DNA of 64,000 nt from Monosiga brevicollis MX1 (lineage: Eukaryota > Opisthokonta > Choanoflagellata > Craspedida > Salpingoecidae), in NCBI RefSeq assembly GCF_000002865.3, contig NW_001865049.1, forward strand, positions 776,774-840,773, read 5' to 3'. Shown here in pieces: positions 496 through 45,019 of this stretch. The notes under the pieces were generated by a model that made no database searches, was not told the origin of the DNA, and saw only the letters and a program-made list of their open reading frames with translations. Position numbers and translations under genes: made by a program. Numbering within the stretch: position 1 is the stretch's first letter; each line of letters opens with the position of its first letter.

Positions 496-1359
496 ATGCG
501 GCAAACAAGCCTCCTGGGCCTTGTGGCCCTGCTGCTGTGCGGGCTGGCCACGGGGCTGCACTCGGCGGAAGATACATCGACAGATGCTGCAGCGACGGCA
601 GATCGGGCACGAGCCATGCAGATGCTGCCGGCCAAACGCTTCTCCGCCAGTCATCCCGCTGCGCTTCCTGAAGTGCTGAACAGCCACCTTCGTCGCCACG
701 CCGCACGTTATGGGCACGCGGTGCGCGCCTGCGAGGCCTGGTCGACCTCAGACCTCAACGCCGTACTCGCAGAGTTGGTGCAGCAAGGTTTGGCTGACGA
801 CGGCGCTCGCTCGCTTCTGGCCCTATACGCACAACGAGGCGAGCCACGGCGCCTTCGCCTCTCCTCCCTGGCCGCCTACTCGGCCGCTTGGCAGCAGGAA
901 GAGGAGCTCATCGACCGTCTAGGCGCGGCTTCTCGCGAAGCCCAGCTCCTGCGTGCCGGTAAATGCTACGAAGCCAGCATGCTGTACATCCATGGCGCCT
1001 CCTCCAAGGTCAAGCAAGGGCTTAGCACGGCCTTCAACGTCCCGCTTCTACCCGAGGGGCCCCTGGCCACGTTGGTCACTGATCACATCTCGGCCATGCG
1101 TTTGACCCCCACCGCCGACCCTGCCACATCGAGCCCGATTGACTCAAATGTTCTCAACACGGTTCAGGACCAAGTTGTCTGCGTCCGTTGTCACGTCACG
1201 CCCAACGCCACCTTCTCGCCTCGTCAATACGACGTGGTGGTCAACGGCTCGCACCCCCTCCTTCGCTCCCCCCAGGTGCGTTTCTAGTGCTCATCCGGCC
1301 TGAAGAAGCACCGCCATCCTGGGTCGTGCAGCCCGCTTCATTCCGCCTCACCTCTTCTG

Positions 1360-1409
<50 letters not shown>

Positions 1410-4400
1410 TCCTTCTTGCTCCTGCCAACTCCGCTTGACCACACTCGTGTCTTTCGCCTTTTAGGTGTTGCGCTCCGCGCAGGGCGTGCTCAACGCCACC
1501 CTCGACGTGGGCGTGGCTCGGCTCTCGGGTGGCCCCCTCGAATTTAACGTGCGTGCCTACAATGGTGGCACCCCTGGGCCCACGCTTTGGGTCCAGCCTG
1601 GTGACTCAATACACGTGACACTCAACAATCACCTGGAGGCGCCCGACGCTTGTCAGGCCGGCCCATCGGGAGCCGGCCCAGACTCCAACTTTTATCGCTG
1701 TCCCAACACCACCAACATCCACTTGCACGGCCTCTGGGTCACCCCGCACGACGTCTTTCGCGGCATCGGCCCAGGTGGTCGTCTCACTCAAACCTACAGT
1801 CTCACGACCGACCATGCGCCAGGCACCAATTGGTACCACCCCCATTTTCACGGCTCCGTTTCCCTCCAACTTGCCATGGGTATGGCCGGTGCAGTCGTGG
1901 TGGATGACCCCCCCAACAGTTTGCCCCCGGCTCTCGAGGCGCTTCGAAGCCGCGACCACGTCATGCTTCTGCAATCCATCGAATACTTCAACTACACGCA
2001 AGATGACATCAACTGCCCCTATGAAGATGGCCTCTCTCATTGCCACAACATGGATGGCGCCGGCTCGCTCGCCACCCTGCGAGCCTTTAGCTCTGACGCC
2101 CTGCCGCTCAATATGGAGCGCCGCGACCCGGGTTACGGTTATCCCATTGATGGCGTCTACTTTCTGCTCAATGGCCAGTTTCAGCCCGTGGTTACCATGC
2201 AACCCGGGGAATATCAGCGCTGGCGCCTTGTCAATGGCGCCCATCAGGCGAGTCTCTCCCTCAGCGTTCCAGGATGCACCGTTTGGCTTTTGTCCATGGA
2301 CGGCGTGTACCTTAGCAGCCCCCGTCTCAAGAACACATCTTACCCTCTTGTTCTTGCCCCCGGGGCGCGCGGTGACGTGGCCGTATCCTGTGCAATGCCG
2401 GGCCTCTTTGAGCTTCGGTCCAACGAGAATCCAGACGTGTGGAACCTCGGTGCTCAGGAGGGCTTCAACACGGGTGTCATCGCCCTTGTCAACGTTTCGG
2501 GACCTAACCTCAACATGTCCGCGCCCACACGCTTGCCCTCCCGCCCAGCTTATCTTCAAGATCTTCGGCCTGCATCGGTTCCCGCAGGCAACACGCGCAA
2601 CGTGTCCTGGGATCTCATTCGCCTCATCAACAACACAGCTGGTTTGACCGACGTGCCCATTTACGGCGTTTCGCAGCAAGCTTTCAATGCTTCAAACCCT
2701 TCACGAGACTGCATCAACGCTCGCAGTGGCGTGCAAGAATGGCAGCTTGTCAACCCAATCTGGATCTGCAATGCCTCCGTCACAACGTGCCTGTCCACCA
2801 TGGACCGCAATGCCGCTTCAGGGGCACTTTTACGGGACTACCAGGAGCCCGTTACGCTGTCGCACGGCTTTCACCTTCACACCTTTAAGTTTCAGGTGGC
2901 CAGCGATAGCAACGGTGGAGTCAGCGCCGACTATGAACTCGGTGACTGGCGAGACACGGTCACCACCCCACTCGCGGGGTGGGTCCGGATCCGCTGGCAG
3001 CCCCAAACGTTTGAAGGTGTGATTCCCTGGCACTGCCATATGTCGGTGCATTCAGACCGCGGGATGATTGGAGCCTCTACGGTGGCATCGCAATGCCCCG
3101 CCGCACCAAATGCCGTGTCCCGAGCACGAGCTGCCGCTCAGGCACGCGCGCGCCCTGCCATGGCCCATCTCGCCTCTGGTAATTGGGAACCTCGCTTGGG
3201 TAATTTCACTTGGAACGTCAGCACGCACAGCCCAGCCGCGCAAGCCCTCTTCAACGAGGCCACCATGATGGCATTTGGTTTCGCCCGCGATGCCGCCAGT
3301 GCCACCTACCTCCGTGCCTTGCAGGCCGATCCTACTTGCGCCATGTGTGCCTGGGGCGTGGCCTATGCCAACGGACCCTTCTTGAATCATCCGGAATGCA
3401 GCAACGCCACCTGTGGACTGGGCTTTGAGTATGCAGAGCTAGCTGCGACGCTGGCTGCTAACCACAGCGTCACTGCCGCCGAAGCAATGCTGATCCGGGG
3501 CATGCAACAGCGCTACAGCCAGGATCCAAAGGCAAATCAGACGGCCCACTTTATGGCCTATGCCCAAGCCCTCAACGCCACTGCGCTGGTCCACAGCGAC
3601 CCCACACTTGCTGCCTTTGCAGCGGAGGCGTATATGCTTCTTCACTGCCAAGATGACGGCTATCATTTCAACTTTCCCAACGGGACGCCTGTGCCAGACT
3701 TGGCCTGGGTAATTGACCTGTTGGGGTCCTATCTCTTCTACCCCAACACCAACGATGTCCTGCCGGGCCCCCGACACCCGTTTGTGTCGCACCTGTACAT
3801 TCATGCCGTCGAGCCATCCGGTGCAGGCATGGGTCCCAATGCCGCGGGTCGTGCCTTCGGCGTGGCACAGCGCCTGAGCTCGGTGCTTCCCAACGTCACC
3901 AGTCTCTGGCAGCACCTGCAGCACATGCCGGCGCACATTTTCTTGCGCACGGGCTACTATGGGTTGGGTGTAGCTGCCAACATGATTGCGCACGCTTCGG
4001 ATGCCACCTGGCTCAACCACAGCCTTGTCCCCTACGGTCCTGGACATAACTTGATTTTCCTCATCTATTGCGCCTGCATGGATGGCCAATCAAGCACTGC
4101 TATCCACTACGGCGAGGTGGTGCGCCAGGTGTACCAGGCTGCTCCAGGTAGGCACGGGACTCTACTCGTGTATTGCGGCATGTATTTGGTTAATGCCATG
4201 TGCTTTGTGATACCACGTTGCTTTGTCGTGGCGAACCTTCCTTGTTGCCCCATCTCTTCCTCACCGAGTTTGCCTGGTGTGCCTATGCGTGCCGCATAGA
4301 TCGCCCTGACGGACCCGGGGCAGATCTGGCGTACAATTGGCCGGCCACTACGTTTGTACGCTTTGGCAGTTGGGACGCCATTCTGGCTGCTGACTGGTTT

Positions 4401-4952
4401 ACCATGCCACGCCCATTTCCGTACCAGCAGGCTCTGGCGCACTACGCCATCGGACTTGCGCAAGCCCACACGGGCAACGTGACTGGCGCACGCGCCTCGC
4501 TTCAAAACTTGCAGCGCGTCCAGGCTACTCTGACGGGACGAGCGGCCACGTATTGCCGTGTTGCCAACTGGACGTTGGGCGCTGCAGTGGCGCGGGCCAC
4601 GGGTCCCGCAGGTGTGCCCACCGCGTTGTCACTGCTCAGCACAGCCGTGGCTGAGCAGATGGGCTGGCCATATGATGAGCCTCCAGACTTTCATCAACCC
4701 ATCCAGCAGTGTTTGGGACAGCTGCAGTTGGAGCTGGGCAACTATTCGGCCGCCTACGACACGTTTCAGGCCAATCTGGCCCACTATCCCAACAACGGCT
4801 GGGCACTCTGGGGCTTGCTACAGGCAGTGCAACACCTCCCCTACGACCCCAGTCGTCCCAGCGCCGCAAGTATTACAACCCGGCTGTCAGCGGCCTGGGA
4901 ACGTGCCGATGTTCCCCTAACCAGTGCCTGTGCGTTGATCCACTTTCCATAA
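496..4952 (+). CDS. Secreted multicopper oxidase fused to a C-terminal TPR domain
   Basis: Exons 496-1275, 1465-4147 and 4300-4952 join in phase to give about 1371 residues. The start at 496 is chosen because a signal peptide follows directly (MRQTSLLGLVALLLCGLATG). Residues up to about 230 match no domain I know. A laccase-like oxidase follows with four copper-site motifs in order: HLHGLW (near residue 347), WYHPHFHG (about 383), HGFHLHTF (about 727) and HCHMSVHSDRGM (about 783). Such enzymes oxidise phenols or metal ions and reduce oxygen to water. From about residue 830 the sequence changes to a TPR-type helical repeat with the motifs CAMCAWG, HLYIHAVE and HMPAHIF, known to me from bacterial TPR proteins. 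Many N-glycosylation sequons support secretion. Intron 1 contains a 47-nt T run. The oxidase call is firm; the joint role of the two halves is unknown. Confidence 0.9.
1362..1408 (+). repeat. Poly(T) run inside oxidase intron 1
   Basis: A homopolymer of about 47 T lies between the donor at 1276 and the acceptor ending at 1464. It is long for a polypyrimidine tract and probably length-polymorphic. Confidence 0.9.
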
Positions 4953-5685: not shown

Positions 5686-8600
5686 ATGGCGCCCACGGCT
5701 CTGGCCGTTGGGCTCACCACCATGAGCCTGTGCGCACTGCTGCATGCCGTGGCCTTGCCAGAGGGCGCACGAAACGGGGGCGCCCATGTGATTCATCCAC
5801 AGGAGCTGCGGCCCATCCCCAAAGCGACAGAGGTAAAGCACGACTTGTCGGATGATCGGGGTGCCGAGGGGCGCCATGCTGTACAGTTTGGTCTTGCGAC
5901 CATATCGAGTTTTTAATCCGTGCTCGCTCTAACCTGGATTGTTGCGTTGCTTCTCAGGCTCCCGCTGCATCAACTATGCTCAATGTCAGGTCAGAAACTC
6001 GTGCAAAAGCTTTGCAGTCGCTTTCTTTTGAAGTGACGTAAATCTTGTACAGACGCCGCTCTTGGCGGATGCACAGCGGTTGATGCGCACGTGTGCGTGC
6101 GCGTGTGTGTGTGGATGTGACGAGTGTTGGTGTGCGAACCCGGGCCTTGTCTTGGCTGTCCTGGTCCCGCTAGCTGACACGCGGCTTTTTGATTCCTGCA
6201 ACTACCAATATCACGTGTACATGTTTTAGCAGCCAGGGCAATGCCTCCGCTGCGCCGGAGAAGGACAGTCAGACGGGATCAAGCAATCGGCTGCTGGATT
6301 TCAATACACTCGTACGATGAATATTCTGCACGCGAGCCCAGCGCAGCAGCCTTTGTCGTTGCTCAGACACCTGACATGCGCCATGACTGATTATAGGATT
6401 CGGCTGAAGTAGAGACCAACGCCAGCTTGCACCTCTTCCTGGTCATTGCTGCTCTGGGTAGCTCCCTGTTTCTCATCTACTGGCTGGCCAAGAGCCGATG
6501 GAGCTTTCTGCCTGACTCGGTGGCCGTCATTGCGTTGGGTTCGTCGTTACCAGAGGCCGCAGAGAGGACTTCGCTTTGACGGGGTTTGGAGGCTCAAAGG
6601 AGTCGTTCAGTGGTGGGCTCGAGACTCAGCTTGCTCTCCTACGCACCTCTCCTAGGGGCCCTCATCGCCGTGGTCTTTCGCTTCGATGACATGGGCTGGG
6701 AGCGTGCCGAAGCTTTTGACCCCACTGTGTTCTTCTTGTACCTCCTTCCTCCCATCATCTTTGAATCAGGGTACGAGTAGGCGGCAGGCTACTCTTGTGA
6801 CTCTAAATCCCTCTCAGTTTCATGCTTCACTTCCTCTCACCTGGCCGGTCTTGTGCTTGTGCAGATACTCTCTACAGCGAGGTGCTTTCTTCAGCAAATT
6901 GGGCACTATTCTGATATTTGCTGTGATTGGCACCATTCTCTCTACGATTGTTGTTGGGGGTGGTTTCATCCTTCTCATGGAATATGGCTACATTCCCAAC
7001 TTTGGCACCATCCAAGTGTGCGTCAAACTGCCGATGCCCCAATTCGCTTTCGCGGCACACATTGCTGTTTTGCACGATGACTCATGAAGAAAAAAACAAA
7101 CAACACCCCCCTCCCCCCCGACGTCCTGGGGCTATTCTTCATGCTTGCCGAGGCAGGTTTGCATTTGGTTCTCTGATCTCTGCGGTGGATCCCGTGGCGA
7201 CGCTGGCCATTTTTCAAGCTCTGGACATTGATGCGAGCCTCTACATGCTGGTGGGTCAAGTCAGCTGGTGACTACATATGTAAATACATGCACTGTGCGT
7301 GCTTACAACACACATTTGCTCATTCCCGTCTCGTAGGTGTTTGGCGAGAGCGTTTTGAATGACGCCGTGTCCATCGTTCTCACTCGAAGTATCATTGAGA
7401 TTGGTATCAAGCACCACTTCACATCTGGACTGCTGTATTCCGTGCGTGAATGTTGCACCGCTTGTGTCGTGCGGCTCCGGGCCCTCGTCTTTTCTGGATG
7501 AAGCGTTTTCCCCATTGATGAACCGGGGCCCGCTGTTTCGCGACGCCATGCTCTGGGATATTGCGTTGATAGGTTTTTTGGGAATTTATCGTCGCTTCAG
7601 TGGGATCAGCCTTGATCGGCGTTTTGGCTGGCTTCTTGTGCGCCCTCGTGACGAAGCATCTGGACTTGTTTCAACTCCCTGCCGTCGAGTTTGCTTTTGT
7701 GTGCATTTTTGCTTACTTGTACGTCCAGTCAGCCTGGTCACGGCTTGCCAGAAAGTTTGCGACTGCTCGTGATATTGCCCCATAGCTTCCTCGCTCGCTT
7801 CTCGATCCTTGCTGTATTTCATCACCGGGATTCCCTACCATGCAGGCCCTATCTCTTGGCGGAGGGCTGGGATTTGAGTGGCATCATGGCAATTCTCTTT
7901 GCCGGCATTACCACAGCACACTATGCGCACGGGAACCTGTCCCCCACCACCAAAGGTATCGTGCTCAGATTGACGATGCGAGCTGGCTGCATTCTCCTCA
8001 ACACCTTGCTTCAAGGCACTGAACCCATATTGCTGGCTTGTGGTAACAGTGACAGTCAAGCAGGCATTTCGAACCACCGCCCTTCTCGCCGAGACGGCCG
8101 TCTTCTTGTATATTGGTACGGGTGCCGATGGCAAAAGTAGCCACAGCTCACGCCCAAGACTTGGCTCACCCTCTCTTGCTTTATCTGGGGCCTGTGATCA
8201 GGCATGGCTCTTTTCAGTTTTCGCTTGGACATCCGGGTGGACATTGTTTGTTACAGGTAGCTTAATTGGCCCACCAGGGGGGTAGAGGAGTTGGGGTTGG
8301 GGTTGAGCAGCTGCTACCACACGTGACATTCATCATCTCATTTGCGGCACCTCTCTGGTGTTGGCTGTGCCTTCCAGTTTGCTGCTATGTTTGCTGGGCC
8401 GAGCTGCTAACATATTTTCGCTCTCCATGTCGGTCAATGTCTTTGCCAATGCACAAATCAGCTCCAAGCACCAGTTTATCATGTGGTTTTCCGGCCTGCG
8501 CGGTGCCATTGCATTTGCTTTGGCGCTGCATCTTCCGCTCGAACTATTTGACGTCGAGGTCAAGAATGTCTTTGTGTCAACAACGCTCATGGTGGTGCTC

Positions 8601-9639: not shown

Positions 9640-12600
9640 TCATGCTTCATCGGGTGCAAACGCATTGATGAGCTCAGGTTGATCGGCAAATTTAACACGC
9701 GTCCTAGCCGTTGCTGAAGTACCAGCTGCCTGGCGACGGCGACCCCGTCGCTGTGCTGGATGCTGTGTTTCCATCAAGGCTGCACTTTCCTCGAAAAACT
9801 TGCTGTGAGACAACAGCTCAAAGATTGCAGTCAGCTCAGGGTTGGTGCCATGGCACAAGCGCAGCTTGACGCACATCTACCACGACAGGCGTGCATAATT
9901 GACTTGAGGACAGCCCCTGTGCATGGAAAAGCAAGATGCGGACCAGCAGCGAATTGAAAGCTTTTTGACACCAACCTCGGGGATGCGAGCACATGATTTC
10001 GCGTGGATGCCAGCAGCCTCGCAAAGTTCGAGTTGATCTCGAAGCTCAACAGCCATGCTACGATCAGAGAGGTTGAATGCAACATTGTAAGATGGTACTT
10101 TGCTCAGCCCCGATTGCAAGAGGCATCTTGGACCAGGGCAGACTGAAGAGGTAGTACATACCGACACAGGGTGTAGGATTGGGACTCGGTACGCATCGGC
10201 AGCTCAGCGAAGGCCAGAATGCGTTCAAGACAATATTGCATGATGAGCTGACGCGTTTTGGCTTCAATGTCGTCGCCACAACTGCGAACCAAACCCAAAA
10301 GTGCTTCTTGCAGCCAGTCATGCCGCAATATGATACGGTCATCTGGGGTATGCCAGAGCAAAGCGCGAAGGCAAAAGACGGCATGGCGAAAGGCTTGGTG
10401 CGTGGAAAACAGCGCGTGGCAATCGCACGCTCGCCAGCCACGCCCTTGAAAGACAATCAAGCACAACAATTGCAGAATGGCATCCTGTTCCTCCTCCTCC
10501 TCCTTCTCCTCCTCCGTGTCATCTTCACTGGCATCTTCATCGCTGTCGTCGTTGCTCTCATCGTCGCCACTGCCATCACTGCCATCGTCATCATCTTCCT
10601 CGTCGCTGCTGATATCATCAAGCTGAAGCAACAGGTAGCTATCGAGATCACTCTGCGGCTCATCCGAGGGCCGATCCACGTCCTTTTCCTTCTCGCTTGG
10701 GCGGCGTGAAGTGGGTTGGGTCCGGGCATTGGCCAAGGTCGGGCAAAGGGTTGACAAAGCCTCAACCAGCGCCAGACTAGCGATGGTCCGCAGAGAAGCA
10801 CGCGGCAGGCACGTCCGAAGCTCAGCCTTGATTGAGCTCCAGACTTCCATATCAATGCCCATGGCGCAGAGTTGAAGCAGCACCGAGCCAATGTCTGGGG
10901 AGTGCTTCGTGAGGTGGCTAAAGGTTCGAGAACGTCCGATGCGAGAGCGCACGTCGCCATTTACCACAACAGCGTTGCGCTCATGGTCAAAACTGCTGCG
11001 CCGGTGGGTGGGATCGTCGTTGGAAGGTTTGTAGTCAAGGTCCACCGTGGTGATACCGGGTGTGTATTCGAGGCCTCGGCACGCGTCGGGGTTGGCATCA
11101 GTAATCACGGTCACGTTGTCGGGCCACCAGCGGGGCAAGATGTGGCGCCAACGACTGACGTGGGTGCAGCCTTGCAAAACCAATACAAAGTGCGACTGGG
11201 GCTGAGCCATGACCAATTCCTGCAAGGAGCTGCGCATCATGTACTCAACGTCACGTGGGATGCGCCGCATCGAGCAGGGCTCCAGGGCTTGTTCCATGAC
11301 AGGGCCCAACTGGCCGGTTTCAAGGGACTCGACCTCAACCAGCCGCATGAAGGATGGCTCTATCAACTCGACCAGCTCATTGTGCTGAATGCTGGACTTG
11401 TGGACGCCGTTGGGCGTGCCTATGGCACCGAGATAGGAGCGACGATAATTGAAGAAATAGTGAGCCGGTGTTTCGGTTGTCTCAAACATATTAGGGCTTG
11501 CTGCGTTTCCTGGATGGTGCAAAAGGTCCATAGCTTGCGTTGCCACGAGGTTGACAAAGCTGGTTGGCACGATGTGGCAGTACTCGCGGCTGTAGGCTGC
11601 CTCCGTCAGGTTTTGGTGTGAAACGCACACGCAAGGCACTTTGTACCGATCCTGGTCAAGAATGGGTGGTGGCTCATGGGCTTCAGCTGTTGTTTCAACG
11701 TTGGCTGGCTTGCTCCCATGGCCAGAAGAAGTCTCCTGAGATTCACTGGACTGGCCCTTCGCCTCTGGAGTCACGGCGGTGGTGCTGATTCCCGCTGACA
11801 TCGAGTTGATAGGACCAGAGGCCGAAGCCATGGCAGTGGCGAGGGAGGAGCCAGGCACTGTGGCTGAGCTGCTGTATGAGCTTGTTTCACTGATGTTGCT
11901 GGCAGCCAGAGATCCAGCAGAGGAACGCGGCGAAACGCGGCGGCTACTACTCTCGCTGCCCGACTCTTCGCGAATCATGCTCAGAGGCAAAGGGGAGAAG
12001 GCACGCAGGGGCGTGCTTGGAACTGGCAGCGAGTTGGCCAGGATGGGCGGGCTGCCAGCATTCTGCGGTGTGGGCGTGGCCCCGGGGCTGGCGACAGCGT
12101 GGCTGCTGAATGAACTTCGAGCAGACACGTTTGCTGGTGGTTGCCAACCGGGGACTGGCTTCATCTTGCCGAGTTGCATGGCTGCACACACGTCGCCGGT
12201 GCGCCGGACAGACTCGCCTGTGACAAAGTGGCAGTTGATAAGATTGCGAGACACACGAATACGGAGATTGCATTCGCTGGCAATAATGGTGCCCTTGGCC
12301 ATGCGTGATGGCGACCGATTCATGAGCCGATTGCGCGTTCCGGGCGAGCCCGGGTGGCGCCGCGGCAACGGAATGGTGTTGTCTAAGGGCAGCGGGGTGG
12401 AAAGGCCCCGATCCATGCCAGAGCTGGTCACAGCCACGAGCATGCGTTCGACGCCTATTGCCTTGGCATTGATATTGTCGTCACGCGAGGCGACTGATGA
12501 GCCATAGCCCGTATTGGTAAAAGCACGGCGCCTTGGGTACTGTGTGGGGGCTGCAGTGCGCGAGATACCGCGCAACGGGCTGGCCTGAGAGTCACGAAGC

Positions 12601-14968
12601 AAGTCTGACGGGCTACGATGCTGCAAGCTTGACGGGTATCCTTTGCCAAAGGCGTGGGTCTCAACGTTGTCTGTGGTGCTGCTGCGACCACCTGCTGTCG
12701 CGAGAGGGGGGCTGCGCGAGCCCACTGAAGAGCTATCGATGATGGACGGTCGGGAGCGGGTCGATGTCCAAGTGGCGGCACGTTTGCGCCGCTGGGAGTG
12801 CTTGAGGCTGCTGCCTCGTTTGGGTGAGGGGGACAGGCTCCGTTCACCGCTACTACTACTGAAAGACAAGCGCGGGGGGCTGTTGGAGGTATCTCTTGAA
12901 GTGACAACGGAGGTTCCGATACTGCCTTCGTTCAAATAGGCGCGGTTGGTGTGCAGGCTCGGAAACCAGCCCATTTCGCCGGTGGCAAGGTTGCGGACAT
13001 AATAACAAGGCACGGTACGTCGACCCAAGGCCGGCCAGGTAGAAGATTCTCTGAAGCCAAGCGGCATTTAAGAAGCCGGTAGACAGAGAACGTGAAGACA
13101 AAGAGCGCAGAGATGAGGAAAGGAAAAAATAAAAAATAAAAATAAATAGATAAAAAAATAAAAAAATTGGAGAGCATCCTCATGCCTCGGTACACTTACG
13201 GAAGATCACAGGCAAAGTTGGCGTCATCCGTGTCGCAGCGAACAAGGAAGCGCGTGGTCGCCGTGGCGTCAGCAATGTCAATATCTAGGTACTCGCTGAG
13301 GACCAGCACTTGGCGCTCTTTGTACCACAGGTGGATGTACTCGCGATTATCTACGAGGCAGACCTCAAGACGGTCATGCTTTCGAAAATGAGCATATTCC
13401 TCATATATATCCGCACGATGACGGGTAGGTGTGAGCAGAGTCTCGACGTTTTGAGTGTGGTGATGGAGATCGAGGGCATGCACAAAATGCTGAGCGGCCT
13501 CGATCAAGGCCTCATCCTGTCGTAAACCATCTTGTGGGCCAAAACGATGACGCAACAGCACCAAGTTGGATTGATCCAAGCTCTGGCGCATCCACTCTTG
13601 AATCACGGCCACGCGTTCTATGACAATGCAGGCCGATATCAGACGTGAAATGCTGAAACAATTGACGACAGCAGATCGTAGCGAAAGAGGGAAGCGTGTA
13701 AAACCAATCGGGTGACGGGGAGAGGGCGGGGTGGAACGGAAAATAAATAACACGTACGGGCTGAACTGCGTGAGCTCAGAGCAATCAGAGGTTTGCGGCG
13801 AGCCACATCAGGGCCCGAGGATGTGGAAGAAGGCGAGGTGTAGGCCGACGAAAACGCCGCAGAAGAGGGTGAGTCGGGCGGGCTCGTTGTCGACGACTTG
13901 TTGTTCCCGGGTGCAGGCATGGAGTGTGGTGCAAGATGGCATGCCGAGGATTGGTCGGCAATTTGAGCGTCCATAGTTGCGGCAAGGAGCTGGCGACCTT
14001 TCTCAATGGCAGCCGGAGGTACAGCGGCATTTTGAGGCGTTGACACGGGGTCATACCTGAGAAAGGCGCGGGTGTGAACGCAAGGATGAGGGCATGCGTG
14101 TGCACAATATGAAACGTGTCACGGGCGCGAAGGTGAGTGTACATGGGGTAAGAAGGGAGGGGATGACAGGGACGCACGAGAAGGACTCGAGGATGGACGA
14201 GATGCGGTGCGCATTGGACACGAAGCGCGGCGGCGACAGGTTTTCGCAGCAGAGGGTGGGCCACTCCTCGTTTTGAAGGGCTTGCAGCTCCCAGCGCAGT
14301 CGGCCGCTCGAGGTAGCAGATTGAGCTTCGTGTTGGTCAGCAACGTCTGGAAGCCAGGAGGCAATGCGGGCGATGGCATCCGCAGCACCCTCATCGAGAA
14401 CAACGAGGCGACACTGCGAATGGCGCAAAGCAAAACGGAGCAAAAGAGCAATGCGGCCGAGACTATTGGTGGCTTGTGGGTTCGCATCGGGTGCACCAGC
14501 AGCGTCTGTCAGCTGCGGATAGAAGAGACTGGCTTCGGTGAGGTGAGCCGCAAGGTATTCCTCGGCCGCTGTCACGGGTTCGGTGGCTGACAGGTTGAAA
14601 ACCGCCAAGTGGCAGCGCAGGAGGGCATCGGCGTCAAGCAGAAAGGGGCGGTCTTCATCTTCAATATCTGAATCCGGGCTGTACAAATCGAGGTCAAGCG
14701 CGCCATCGGCTTGGATACAGGCTTCCCTGATGGCCTGGCTCAGGGAAACCAGGGCGGGTCGGTTGGCTTCGCCAGCAAAAAGCGCAACGGCAGGAACCGT
14801 CACGGTGCTGCCTGTCCCGCCACAATTTGTTGGCGAGGATGCGGTGGCCGCTAACAAGGGTCTGGACGCGGGTGCCCAAGCCACCTTGGGGCTTGCGGGG
14901 GCAGCGGCCGCCATGGCATCTGGCGTGCCTGGCGTGCAACGTCGGCTCGCGCAGTACCGAGGCAACAA
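9640..14968 (-). CDS. Large serine-rich protein with an SH3-like signature, unrecognised family
   Basis: A long minus-strand gene. Its main exon (about 10140-13050) is open for over 950 codons. Earlier exons lie near 14180-14968, 13750-14057 and 13205-13650; later ones reach the stop at 9640. The start may be the ATG ending at 14968 or the inner one at about 14914. An N-terminal helical, leucine-rich part precedes a charged exon with LEVCLVDNREYIHLWYKERQ. The main exon opens with YYVRNLATGEMGWFPS, whose G-x-x-G-W-F-P-S pattern resembles the end of an SH3 domain. A Ser/Pro-rich disordered region of about 350 residues follows, then a folded part with VLVLQGCTHVSRWRHILPRW, a long Asp/Glu tract (near 10480-10620) and a leucine-rich C-terminal part. 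I cannot assign a family. A scaffold or exchange-factor role would be a guess. Confidence 0.75.
10485..10625 (-). repeat. Low-complexity acidic codon tract
   Basis: GAG/GAC/GAT-rich coding DNA gives a near-continuous Asp/Glu/Ser stretch within the large minus-strand protein. The opposite strand is open only as a shadow of this bias. Confidence 0.8.
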
Positions 14969-31978: not shown

Positions 31979-33839
31979 TTAGGGGACAACAAGCATGGGG
32001 CCTTCACCATAGAGGTCCTCATCTGAGACAGCTGCCATCTCCACACCAATAGGGCAAGGAATGTCCATCGTCTCGAGGGACATGCCAGGGTAGAAGTACA
32101 GGCTGGGCTCATCATGGAGAGCGCTCGAGACGTGCTGGCCGTGCTGAACAGGGCCACCGGCTGAGGGATGGCCAATAAAGGCGGCGTAGTGGCGCTGAGG
32201 ACCAGTGTGCAGCTGACGGGCATCGGTATGCATACCGCGCTTCTGGGGCTCGGCCGGGTTGCTGGGAGTGGGTGCCTTGCGGTTGAGCTCAATGTGGGCC
32301 TTGAGAAGATCATCCGTGGCCAGGGCAGCGATGAGAGACAGCTCGCCGGCCATGACGGAGGAAGCAACGACGTGAGCCAAAGTGTCGGCGTTGGCACCGG
32401 TTTGTTCACGGTTGGCACCCTGGCAGCCAAGCATCTTGAGAGCAGCAGCCTGGGCGGGCAGGCTAGTACCACCACCAACCGTGCCGACCTCAATGGCGGG
32501 CATGGTCACCGACACGTGAAGGTCGTCGCCGTCCTTTTCGAGAATGGTCAGGCACTGAGAAGATTCAACCACCTGAGCGGGATCGTTGCCGGTGGCCAGG
32601 AAGACAGCCGCGACAATGTTGGCGGCATGCGCGTTGTAGCCACCCAAAGTACCAGCAATGGCAGAGCCGATGAGGTTCTTGTTGATGTTAACGGAGATCA
32701 TGGCATCGGGGGTGGTCTTGAGAACAGAGCGGACAATGTCGTTGGGGATGAGGGCCTCCGCCACGACGGAGCGGCCGCGGCCGCTGACCCAGTTGATGGC
32801 AGCTGCCTTCTTATCCGAGCAGGCGTTGCCGGACATGGAAATGAGCTGAGCATCGGGGAAGTTTTCCTGGAGAAGGTTGACGGCCTTGTGACAACCCTTG
32901 GTGACCATGTTCATGCCCATGGCATCACCGCAGTGGCAAGCAAAGCGCACGTAGAGGTTGCGACCAGCGACCCAAGCATCGATGGACTGAAGACGACCAA
33001 AGCGAGTAGTGCTGTTAAAGGCCTCAGTGAGAGCAGCCTTGTTCTCGGGCTGCTCAATCCAGAGGCGGACTTGCGCGGCAGCCGAGGCACTGGGCAGACG
33101 GAGAAGGGGGGCACGGGTCATGCCGTTCTTGACAATAATGGCCTTGGCACCACCCGCCTTGGAGATGGCACGGCAGCCACGGTTGGTGCTGGCCACGAGG
33201 GCACCCTCAGTGGTGGCCATGGGCACACGGAAGGGCTGCTCGTTGATGACAAGGGGGCCCACGACGCCCACGGGGAGTGGAAGGTAGCCAATGACGGCTT
33301 CGCAGTTGGCACCCTCGATTGAGCCGTAAAAGTTTTGGTAATCAAAAGTATCGGCGGGAAGGTCCTTGAACGTCATTTGGCTGTCGTCCGAGCCCTTGCC
33401 TTCGAGGTGGAGGCAATCGGCGAGGTATGCACGTCGCACATTAACGGCACGATGGCAGTCACGCAGTTCCTAGAGAAAATTGATGGCGAAGAGGAGTGAC
33501 ATCGTTGAGCTGGTGCGACAAGAGGCGACGCAGACGGGTGGTGGTACAGGTGCAGGGGCAGGGGCAAGAGCGGAGCGGGGCGTGGCGCCTCACCTTTTCA
33601 AGGTTGTGGAGCTTGATATCACCGTTGTGCAGGGCTTGCAGCACGGCCTCATCAGTCATGTTGGCAAAGTCGGATGAGGCATCCATGCTGGTAGCGGCCG
33701 CCAAAGGGTGTTGGTCACGCGTGGTAGTTGCCACGTTGCGCTGGTGGGCCAAAAAGTTGGTGGCAGCGCGGTGCTGCTGCAGGTGGCGACGCACCGGGGC
33801 GCCGAGGCGCATGGCAGCGACACGAAGCGCGGCAGCCAT
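31979..33839 (-). CDS. HMGCR-like: HMG-CoA reductase, class I catalytic domain without membrane domain
   Basis: Two exons, 33839-33594 and 33469-31979, join in phase to 578 residues. This enzyme makes mevalonate from HMG-CoA with NADPH. Eukaryotic class I motifs are all present: VIGYLPLPVGVVGPL, EGALVASTNRG (catalytic Glu), DAMGMNM, ACSDKKAAAINWVSGRG (catalytic Lys), GTVGGGT and VMAGELSLIAALA, followed by KAH with the catalytic His. The dimerisation helix (ALHNGDIKLHNLEK, then LRDCHRAVNVRRAYLA) is intact. The N-terminus has no transmembrane helix or sterol-sensing domain. It begins MAAALRVAAMRLGAPVRRHL, which is Arg/Ala/Leu-rich with no acidic residue for about 40 positions, like a mitochondrial presequence. 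The Ser that AMPK phosphorylates in animals (HNRSK) is absent (LNRKA). A C-terminal extension of about 85 residues is unusual. Confidence 0.95.
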
Positions 33840-40497: not shown

Positions 40498-43400
40498 ATG
40501 TCCGCCTCGCCACCCGCGTCTGCACCTGCATCCGATGGCGTCGGTCCCCACGGTCCTCGGCCTGCTGCCTCCGTCGATGGCAGGCACAATGGCACATCTA
40601 CCCCTGCCAGCCACGCAACACCACAGTCGGCAGCTCCCGGCTCCCCCTTGGCCCGCTCCCGCGTCAGCTTTAGCATCGTACGTTGGGCCCCGGCCAATCA
40701 GCCCCAGGGCTCCCACAAATCCCCATCCCCCGCCCCTCGCACCGCCTTATCGCTTGTTTCTCACCATAGCTGCCCGCTTGATGTCCACACCAGGGCGCCC
40801 CCGCTCAATCCACCGACCCGGCCCCACCCACCAAGCCGACCCCGCCGCCGCTGACAGGTCGTGAAGCCATCCAGCGCTATGGCAGCGATGACGGTCTCTC
40901 CCGTCACAACTCGTCCAGTTCCAATCGCCTCTACGAGCACCACCACCACTACCACCATCACCATCACCATTACTACGGCAGCGTCCCCAACTCGGCTCAC
41001 TCAGGCCACCACAGCCCCGGAGGCCACCACAGCTCGGGCCATCACCTCAGCCACAGCCAAGGCCTGAGTCACAGTCACCACAGCCTACACAGCCTTCACA
41101 GCCACCATAGCCACCATCATCACGGTCACCACGGTCACCATGGGCATGGCCACCACGGCAGCCACGGCCATAGTCGTGGCCCAGGCCGCAACCACAGCCA
41201 TAGCAGCCTGCACAGCATCCAGAGCCACCTTAGCTTTGGCTTTGGACGCCGCCGCCCCCCACACTCGGAAGAGGATTACGGCATTCGCCTCACCCAGCTC
41301 GTTCGCCTCATCGCTGATCGCCACGAGGATGGTGTCAATCATCTCAACCGCGACTTTCAAGGCCCCGAAGGCCTGGCCGCCCGCCTACACTCGGACCTCG
41401 AGCAAGGTATCCCCGGGACTGAGCAAGATCTCTGGCAGCGCCGTCACGCCTTTGGTGCCAATCAGACCCCACCCCCAGCCGCCAAAGGGCTTTTCCAGCT
41501 CATGTGGGACGCTGCCCAGGACCCCATCCTCTTTGTCCTGACCATTGCCGCCATCCTCTCCCTGTTCCTTGACGTTTACGTCAGCAACAAGCCGGACACG
41601 GGCTGGATCAAGGGTCTGGCTCTGCTCATCTCCGTCGCCATTGTCATCCTTGTCACCGCCATCAACGACTTGCAAAAGGAGCGTCAATTCCGCGAGCTCA
41701 TGGAGAAGCAAGAATCCGGTCTCCAAGCCGACGTCATTCGCAACGGCGAACAAGTGCGCGTCAAGTACCAGGACCTCGTGGTGGGCGACATTGTGCAGAT
41801 TCACGCTGGCCTTGTTCTGCCCGCCGACGGCGTCCTCTTCCGCGCTGACCACATCAAGTGTGATGAGTCGGCCCTCACGGGCGAGTCCCTGGACGTACCC
41901 AAGAGCCTCGAGGAAGACCCGTGGTTGTTGTCCGGCACCAGCGTCAAGCAGGGCTCGGGCACCATGATTGTGACCTGTGTGGGCCTCTTTTCCGAAGAGG
42001 GCATCATTCAAAAGCTCATCACCGGCGTGGGCGAAGAAGAATCAGACCGCTTGCTTGAACTTGACAACGCTCACACGCCAGCCCACGAGCGCCAGACGGA
42101 TAGTCACCTCGCGCTGAGCACGCTCAACGAAACAACGTCTTCTCATGAGCAGGAACGCTCCAGCCTGGAGCCCAGCTCCAACAGCGACGGCGTCTCCAAG
42201 GCCCGGTCCGACAGTGAGAGCAGCAGCGACTACGAAGACGAGGGTCCCGACAAGAAAAAGGTGAGGCGTGTACCACCTCGTTGGTTTGCGCCAGCCACGT
42301 ATGTGTGGTGGTCACCAAAAGAATGTGCAAGTAAAGATTTATTTTCACCCCTTTCCCGCACTCGGACATTGACACGCGTGCTTGTGTGATTCTCCGCCCT
42401 CGGTGCTCTCTAGTCAATTCTGCAAGCCAAGCTGCAGCGCATGGCCTTGCAGGTGGGCTACGCCGCCACAGCGGTAGCGCTTTTGACCCTCGTTGTCCTC
42501 GTCGTCTCCTTTTCCGTGCAATACTTTGGCACGGACGGCAACTCTTACTCGGCCGACGTCTGGTCTGATTACGTCGAGGTACGCGTGATTTGACGCCCGG
42601 ATATTCGCTTGGCCCGCCACAACCCGCCTTGATCAGTAGCCACACTCTCACTGCAACGGCCAACGCCCGGTTCCAAACAATCCCGCAGTTTATCACGACA
42701 GCCATCGTGGTCCTGGTCGTGGGCATTCCGGAAGGCCTGCCCCTCGCCATTACCATCTCCATGGCTTACTCGGTCAAGCAGATGATGAACGACCACAACC
42801 TTGTGCGCGTACCTGCCTCCTGCGAGACCATGGGCAATGCTACGACCATCTGCTCCGACAAGACTGGCACCCTCACCACCAACCGCATGACGGTCGTCAA
42901 GGCCTGGATTGGCGGTCGTGTCTTCAACGAGATTGAGGACGCCCGTGACCTGCCAACTGACCTCATTGAACGACTCAAGGCCAGCATTGCCCTCAACAGC
43001 AGCCGCTCTGCCAACTACAGCATTGATCCCGAATCAGGCCTCCCCATCCAGGAGAACAACAAGACGGAATGCGCGTGCCTCAAGTTTGCCGACGACCTCA
43101 GCGACCGTCCGTACACGGCTTACCGCGAGGAGACGCCCGTGGAAGACTACGTCAAGGTGTACCCCTTTGATTCGGCTACCAAGCGCATGGAGACGGTGGT
43201 CCGCCTGCCCAGTGGCAAGTACCGCGTCTACGTCAAGGGTGCTTCGGAGATTATTCTCAGCTTTGCCACCGCCTACGACGTGGGCAACGACCAGACCAAG
43301 CCCCTCACGGCGGATGACCGTGCGGCACTGGAGAGGGACGTCATTGTGCGCTTTGCCGAGCAAGCGCTGCGCGTCATTTGCATCGCATACAAGGACTTTG

Positions 43401-45019
43401 ACGAGGCGCAAGACTGGGAGCAGGAGGAAGAGTTGCTCACTGACCTCGTCGTTTCAGCCTTTGTTGGTATCCAGGACCCTGTCCGGCCCGAAGTGCCCGA
43501 CGCCGTGGCCACGTGCCAGCGCGCGGGTGTGACCGTCCGGATGGTCACGGGTGACAACATGATTACCGCCCGCGCCATTGCCATCAACTGCGGCATCATC
43601 ACCGAGCAAGACGATGGCGAAGGCGTCGTCATGGAGGGCCCCGACTTCCGCCGTCGCGTTGTGAAAGAGGATGGCTCGCTGGACTACGAAGAGATTCAGC
43701 GCATTGGCACCAAGCTCCGCGTCATGGGTCGCTGCTCGCCCTCGGACAAGTTCAACCTGGTCAAGGGGCTCATCAAGGCCGGCGAGGTTGTAGCCGTCAC
43801 CGGTGATGGTACAAACGATGGCCCGGCCCTGGCCGAGGCCGATGTGGGTTTTTCCATGGGCATTGCCGGCACCGACGTTGCACGCCAGGCCTCCGACATT
43901 GTCATCACCGACGACAACTTTAGCTCGATTGTCAAGGCCATCTCTTGGGGCCGAAACGTCTATGACAGCATTTCCAAGTTTATCGTGTTCCAACTGACCG
44001 TCAACGTGGTGGCCCTCACCGTGGCCTTTGTGGGCGCCTGCGCCATTCGTGAATCACCCCTCCGCGCTGTTCAGCTGCTCTGGGTCAACCTCATCATGAA
44101 CGTGTTTGCGGCTTTGGCCCTGGCCACTGAGCGCCCGACAGCCGAACTGCTCGAGCGTGCCCCCTATGGGCGCTCTCAGCCCCTGGTCTCGCGCATCATG
44201 ATGCGCCAGATCCTCGGTCACGCCCTGTATCAGCTACCCGTCCTTCTCTTGCTCATCTTCTACGCGGACGAGATGTTTGACATCCAGAGTGGACGGCGCT
44301 ATGACCTCACCGTGCAGCAGCGCGAGGACGAAATTTTGACACAGCACTACACGTTTATTTTCAACACCTTTGTGTGGATGCAAATTTTCAACGAGTTGAA
44401 TGCTCGCGTGGTGAACGACAACCTGACCGTGCCCGGCCTGCCTCGCCTGCTGGGTAACTTTTGCCGGCCCTTTGTTGGCTTTTTCTCCAACCCCATCTTT
44501 GTGAGTGTGGTGCTGGGCACCATTGTGGCCCAGGTCCTGATTGTCCAGTATGGCGGTCTTGCCTTTGAGACAACACCTTTGGGTGGTACGCTGTGGGGTG
44601 CCTCGATTGCCTTTGGGGCGGGCTCCCTGATCTGGAACGTGGTGCTCCACTACATTTTCCCCTGGCACTGGATTCCAGCTTGGCTTGTTCCCGGCTCTTA
44701 CCCAGATTTGGATCCGAACCGCTCCGCCGAAGTGGATAGCATTCAGGGTCCTCCCGACTCCCCGACCCCACGCCCTGAGGACTTTGTCACGGTGGCCCTG
44801 GACAGCCCGGACCTCGACCCCACCGTTCCGCATCACCATCACCACCACCACCACCACCACCCACATCACAGCCAGCATCGTAGCCCTGACCAACCATCGT
44901 CACAACAACAACAACAACAGACGCAGCCGCAAGAGCATGCGCACCCTGTTCGGGGCCTGGGCAGCACCTCCCGCATCATTCTCCCCCAGTCCATTAGCCA
45001 ACAAGAGACCATCGTCTAA
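40498..45019 (+). CDS. ATP2B-like: Plasma-membrane-type Ca2+-ATPase (P2B) with His-rich termini
   Basis: Exons 40498-40677, 40794-42260, 42414-42578 and 42689-45019 all join in phase 0 to about 1380 residues. The catalytic set is complete: ALTGES (actuator), VVGIPEGLPLAITI (TM4 calcium site), CSDKTGTLTTNRMT (phosphorylated Asp), VRMVTGDNMITA and VTGDGTNDGPAL (hinge). LLWVNLIMNVFAALALAT is the TM6 signature of P2B pumps. An acidic/Ser-rich insert (about 42040-42260) sits before TM3, as in animal PMCAs. The N-terminus is Pro/Ser-rich, then has about 43 histidines between 40900 and 41250 with runs of four and six. The C-terminus has a run of ten His near 44830, then Gln-rich sequence. A classical calmodulin-binding segment is not obvious. 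The upstream start at 40498 was chosen because it splices in phase into the His-rich frame. Confidence 0.95.
40896..41250 (+). repeat. Histidine-rich coding tract in the Ca2+-ATPase N-terminus
   Basis: CAC/CAT-dominated codons, mixed with Ser and Gly, encode some 43 His in about 118 residues. The frame is continuous with the pump and has no ATG of its own, so it is coding only if spliced to the exon at 40498-40677. Confidence 0.88.

Follow-up and report, generated by a model that had tools for sequence, protein, structure and literature searches.

The question raised by positions 496-4952 of the window (the whole analysed stretch of 64,000 nucleotides from Monosiga brevicollis) is whether a multicopper oxidase (MCO) and a tetratricopeptide repeat (TPR) module are joined here in one secreted protein and, if so, what such a protein could do. 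The initial annotation had placed both in a single protein with their junction within one exon. Its exon coordinates proved right, and three exons on the + strand join through GT..AG introns into a single open frame of 1371 aa, which includes both modules. The encoded protein consists, in order, of a signal-like start, an unmatched region of ~235 aa, a three-domain MCO, a linker of ~32 aa, and a TPR superhelix of ~530 aa. The parts of the gene are the following:

496..1275, + strand: exon 1, with a signal-peptide-like start (residues 1-24, by eye) and the ~235-aa region; defined by frame and splice sites
1276..1464, + strand: intron 1 (GT..AG) with a poly-T run within it; read from the sequence
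1465..4147, + strand: exon 2, encoding the complete MCO, the linker, and the initial part of the TPR half; open frame from 1465 and splice sites
1471..3099, + strand: three-domain MCO, residues 263-805; Pfam and alignment to Thermus laccase and 3zx1
3100..3195, + strand: Ala/Arg-rich linker, residues 806-837; sequence, with model pLDDT <50 at residues 821-837
3196..4147, + strand: exon 2 part of the TPR half carrying the histidine motifs (His-TPR), residues 838-1154; homology, AF2 model, and TPR superhelix matches
4148..4299, + strand: intron 2 (GT..AG); splice sites
4300..4952, + strand: exon 3, C-terminal TPR repeats up to the stop; sub-cut-off TPR matches and alignment with the C-terminus of the bacterial proteins

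The MCO/TPR junction is located inside exon 2. The stop-free frame 1465-4299 comprises 944 codons, with the splice site after codon 894, whereas 300 first-order Markov sequences of 4457 bases reached at most 479. The motifs HLYIHAVE (3790-3813) and HMPAHIF (3922-3942) share an identical frame and exon. The codon usage of the MCO half correlated with that of the TPR half at 0.82; the yardstick was 0.73-0.94 between six exon sets of the window, and shifted frames yielded 0.52 and 0.67. The G+C content of the window is ~56%. In the genome, 150 cadherin-domain matches were obtained (150 of 288 candidates scored), in frames as long as 11470 aa; this pattern and the G+C content agree with a choanoflagellate, although 1 of 14 prokaryote controls also responded.

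Sequons were enriched in both halves of the protein. The TPR half contained 11 versus 2.5 expected, a number reached in none of 2000 shuffles, and the MCO half contained 10 versus 4.2 expected (11 of 2000 shuffles as high). With 2.02 sequons per 100 aa, the TPR half exceeds all of its 86 bacterial homologues, for which the median density is 0.18 and the highest 0.73. This enrichment, combined with a signal-like start recognized by eye at residue 1, argues for a single chain that takes both halves through the secretory pathway, and the fusion protein is probably secreted. Exon 1 showed no enrichment (2 sequons versus 0.9 expected; 452 of 2000 shuffles as high), which counts against this reading.

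Exon 1 had no Pfam or NCBIfam match, and no further match to it was found in the M. brevicollis genome by a single-sequence six-frame search. Its fold, predicted from the single sequence, had a pLDDT of 43 and was uninformative. A heme-c-like CxxCH motif (CVRCH, 1180-1194, residues 229-233) is present at the end of exon 1, directly before the oxidase; in a eukaryotic secreted protein it probably occurs by chance. Repeats comprise a CA repeat (1-82), a CT-rich tract upstream of the gene (254-304), and the poly-T run within intron 1 (1361-1408).

The domain search proposed in the initial annotation revealed three MCO Pfam domains in the oxidase half, all above cut-off: PF07732 (Cu-oxidase_3, 57.5 bits), PF00394 (Cu-oxidase, 23.9 bits), and PF07731 (Cu-oxidase_2, 54.0 bits). 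Alignment to 2xu9 and 3zx1 showed that all four copper motifs are retained, with ten histidines, a cysteine, and an axial methionine at the copper sites (H346, H348, H385, H387, H727, H730, H732, H783, C784, H785, H789, and M794); in the MCO family, these 12 positions serve as the T1, T2, and T3 copper ligands. Among the best 60 of 102 PDB matches, the top ones were Thermus laccase (105 bits) and 3zx1, presumably McoC (83 bits), followed by copper efflux oxidases including CueO (~50-60 bits), and, lower, by bilirubin oxidase 8z59 (46 bits), ascorbate oxidase (27 bits), and 6klg, a chain named laccase (22 bits). Five bacterial MCOs, drawn from earlier hits and thus good matches by choice, scored 156-175 bits at 26-28% identity. 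The NCBIfam cut-offs were reached neither for CueO (74.5 vs 525 bits) nor for laccase (47.3 vs 558.9 bits).

The other sizeable MCO of the genome (G000 C42:787620-787916) showed the reverse pattern, matching ascorbate oxidase with 158 bits and FET3 with 142 bits but the window MCO with only 34 bits. By its sequence, therefore, the oxidase half is of bacterial type and of a different lineage from this ascorbate oxidase/Fet3/fungal laccase-type MCO. The suggestion that a bacterial gene had been fused to a host oxidase is not supported, since the oxidase half scores far higher with Thermus laccase than with ascorbate oxidase. The genome contains three further MCO matches, two on C38 and one on C24; no second copy of the MCO half was found by the single-sequence six-frame search. 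The window protein shares three cupredoxin domains and the full set of ten histidines, cysteine, and axial methionine with bacterial three-domain MCOs (2xu9, 3zx1, CueO), but differs from them in the N-terminal extension and the C-terminal His-TPR module.

The TPR half did not reach the Pfam TPR cut-off: TPR_2 scored 14.7 of 27 with the full protein and 22.3 of 27 with exon 3 alone. Its TPR nature is instead indicated by its bacterial homologues, the majority of which score above such a cut-off, and by the predicted fold. The AF2 model (pLDDT 85, pTM 0.86) is a TPR superhelix, in agreement with its structure matches. Homology extends end to end, at ~30% identity, along a bacterial protein that is apparently exported and has a length of ~570 aa; at the 80 bacterial loci retained, the match ran from query residue 1-5 to 474-486 of 487 (E values from 1e-56 to 5e-47), and identity was ~28-38%, varying by stretch. 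These homologues are named "tetratricopeptide repeat protein" or "hypothetical protein", and a hydrophobic segment directly precedes the domain in 75 of the 80, but was seen in none of 80 control segments. Throughout the prokaryote collections that were searched, the TPR half occurs without an attached oxidase, which bears out its likeness, pointed out in the initial annotation, to a stand-alone bacterial protein. Compared with these bacterial proteins, the window's version shows full-length homology and has all the family-invariant His, Met, and acidic residues, but it is fused, sequon-rich, and strongly diverged.

No curated name was obtained for the family: three of four members scanned had NCBIfam matches, all sub-cut-off, and Pfam gave only generic TPR, plus AhpC/TSA where this domain is fused. 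A PDB sequence search with the exon 2 TPR part yielded no match. With the family profile, 17 PDB matches were obtained, by name generic, designed, or TPR-containing proteins, and no solved family member was recognized among them. In the M. brevicollis genome, the TPR half had no further match by the single-sequence six-frame search. In a quick tree of 87 rows, the end branch of the window row was 3.18 long, compared with a median of 0.3, and joined another long row. Consequently, the separate phylogeny that had been proposed for this half shows its divergence but does not indicate a donor, and we name none for either half. The low identity and the very long branch mean that an altered function is possible. 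The Flavobacterium saliperosum homologue (L047, 10001-11422) has one in-frame TAG stop inside the match.

Since the genome scan itself had used the pattern H..HM..H, conservation was assessed in a set of 39 homologues fetched without it, comprising 6 plasmid homologues, 13 frames from the planctomycete set picked by length, and 20 places in Pseudomonadota and Bacteroidota. This set spans deep subfamilies, and all 39 members could be aligned; a mild bias remains, because the 33 genome members were found by a profile containing the motif. The conserved elements are the following:

3790..3813, + strand: motif H1036-x3-H1040-x2-E1043; both His in 39/39, Glu or Asp in 39/39
3913..3936, + strand: motif H1077-x2-H1080-M1081-x2-H1084; each residue in 39/39
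4045..4047, + strand: H1121, invariant in 39/39

Thus, six histidines and one methionine were identical in all members, position 1043 was occupied by Glu in 27 and Asp in 12, and the fusion retains all eight residues, including the acidic one. The only other columns conserved in 39/39 were D882 and position 875, which is Phe in bacteria and Tyr in the window. In the model, the eight residues are placed on helices 1032-1042 (with E1043 just beyond), 1073-1089, and the start of 1120-1132; their order suggests that each of these three is the inner helix of its repeat, in consecutive repeats. On the first two helices each set is one-sided, and only 25 of 20000 random draws were equally so. In 86 bacterial rows, 80 of which came via the motif scan, 140 columns were at least 80% conserved, and the window retains 97 of them. 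It is changed at H868 (98% in these rows), W989 (100%), and H1124 (95%); in the wider set of 39, H868 was found in 21 and W989 in 20. The invariant histidine set favours an active or metal-binding module over a passive scaffold; in the favoured reading, the TPR groove would hold a second site that probably binds metal.

The MCO-TPR layout was searched for in genomes positive for the TPR family. The TPR alignment was run against five sets of 294, 299, 198, 149, and 148 genomes and gave matches in 77, 27, 50, 62, and 4 of them (threshold 1e-10 for the first three and 1e-20 for the last two); ~5-10 candidates were scored per genome, and every set contains its starting genome, which had been picked for matching. 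No MCO was found in the fetched flanks of any of the 80 bacterial TPR loci, nor in the five frames of at least 1000 aa from the 220 family-positive genomes of 1088, two of which carry AhpC/TSA and three TPR only. The part of the 700-1000 aa frames that was checked likewise contained no MCO. Viral contigs yielded 16 pattern matches with the TPR alignment, none of them confirmed, and no pattern match with exon 2. Among annotated plasmid homologues, the neighbours in four TPR and two MCO regions included no constant partner; two further TPR regions carried no annotation. The layout, which according to the initial annotation would have to be rare in known laccases for the proposal to stand, is not common as far as the bacterial data go; it was seen in the genome of M. 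brevicollis, the sole eukaryote in scope.

A different fusion was found in distant family members from planctomycetes. Thirteen long frames were fetched and ten scanned, of which eight (L096, L099-L104, and L108) had AhpC/TSA and Redoxin matches, the AhpC/TSA domain following the TPR part in one frame, and two had none. These proteins have the same His motifs as the window protein and likewise a redox partner in one chain, but their partner is a thioredoxin-fold, peroxidase-like domain placed after the TPR part, whereas that of the window is an MCO placed before it. Because the His-TPR family has been joined separately to a thiol-redox domain and to an MCO, a redox context for it is suggested.

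The titles and opening parts of abstracts on MCO-TPR fusions and on Monosiga or choanoflagellate MCO or laccase contained no such fusion, and none describing a TPR metal site of this kind was found in the parts of the literature available. Nor was the fusion found described in the titles and opening parts of abstracts on horizontal gene transfer in choanoflagellates. PMC4046809 and PMC4133162 were covered as well, and the main text of PMC4046809 mentions neither TPR, nor copper, nor fusion.

We favour, with a probability of about 55%, the reading that the locus encodes one secreted glycoprotein with two working modules, a bacterial-type MCO and a His-TPR with a second site, whose halves are bacterial and were joined in a eukaryote. 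The probable course of events is an ancient uptake of both halves from bacteria, followed by their joining within the eukaryotic lineage. Counting against this reading, no bacterial neighbour or fusion joins the modules at the 80 loci or in the five frames of at least 1000 aa. These same results make it improbable that the fusion was formed in a bacterium and transferred as a single unit, although both halves are bacterial-type, bacterial forms of the TPR partner look exported, and bacterial MCOs of this type are presumably exported too. A weak further point against a bacterial fusion is the seemingly different spread of the modules in planctomycetes, where TPR matched 77 of 294 genomes and the MCO 3 of 199, the latter with a single-sequence query less sensitive than the alignment. 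A wrong gene model, with the oxidase and downstream TPR genes as separate transcripts or an assembly chimera, is hardly credible. GC3 does dip to 0.58 in the linker stretch 3070-3249 versus 0.68 in the flanks, but no stop interrupts the frame at the junction, codon usage is alike, and sequons are enriched on both sides, though by eye the signal-like start is found only on that of the oxidase; the opinion expressed in the initial annotation that mis-joining is unlikely is thus upheld.

As to function, tethering, an idea already raised in the initial annotation, is possible. A reading in which the TPR half serves as a common binding scaffold, anchoring the oxidase to a matrix or another protein while the invariant histidines play a structural role, seems unlikely, because the histidine set suggests a module that is active or binds metal. 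Tentatively, with the odds somewhat against it, the TPR half could belong to a widespread and undescribed family of exported metalloproteins built of TPRs, whose superhelix groove contains a six-His/Met/Glu site; the fusion would then be a secreted two-centre metal redox enzyme that joins this centre to an MCO.

MCOs couple the reduction of O2 to substrate oxidation. In the favoured two-module protein, the oxidase would take electrons from a substrate (a phenol, Cu(I), or Fe(II)) and reduce O2 to water, and the TPR superhelix would present the six-His/Met/Glu site on helices of three successive repeats. This site may serve to bind copper, iron, or zinc, or it may itself be a redox or catalytic centre in addition to that of the oxidase. 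With the linker holding the two centres near each other, substrate, metal, or electrons could pass between them outside the cell. If so, the fusion would tie an uncharacterised bacterial family that spans phyla to copper redox chemistry. This "guilt by fusion", backed by the separate AhpC/TSA fusions, would provide a testable first hint of His-TPR function, and two bacterial-type modules would have been combined into a new secreted protein in a single-celled, apparently close relative of animals.

Elsewhere in the window, an open frame of 987 codons without a Pfam match is located at 10107-13067 on the - strand, and an exon at 6580-6777 (+ strand) has a weak, sub-cut-off match to a sodium/hydrogen exchanger. 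A long HMG-CoA reductase exon (PF00368, E value 8e-135) occupies 31982-33469 on the - strand, and two long exons at 40782-45016 (+ strand) encode a P-type cation-transporting ATPase.
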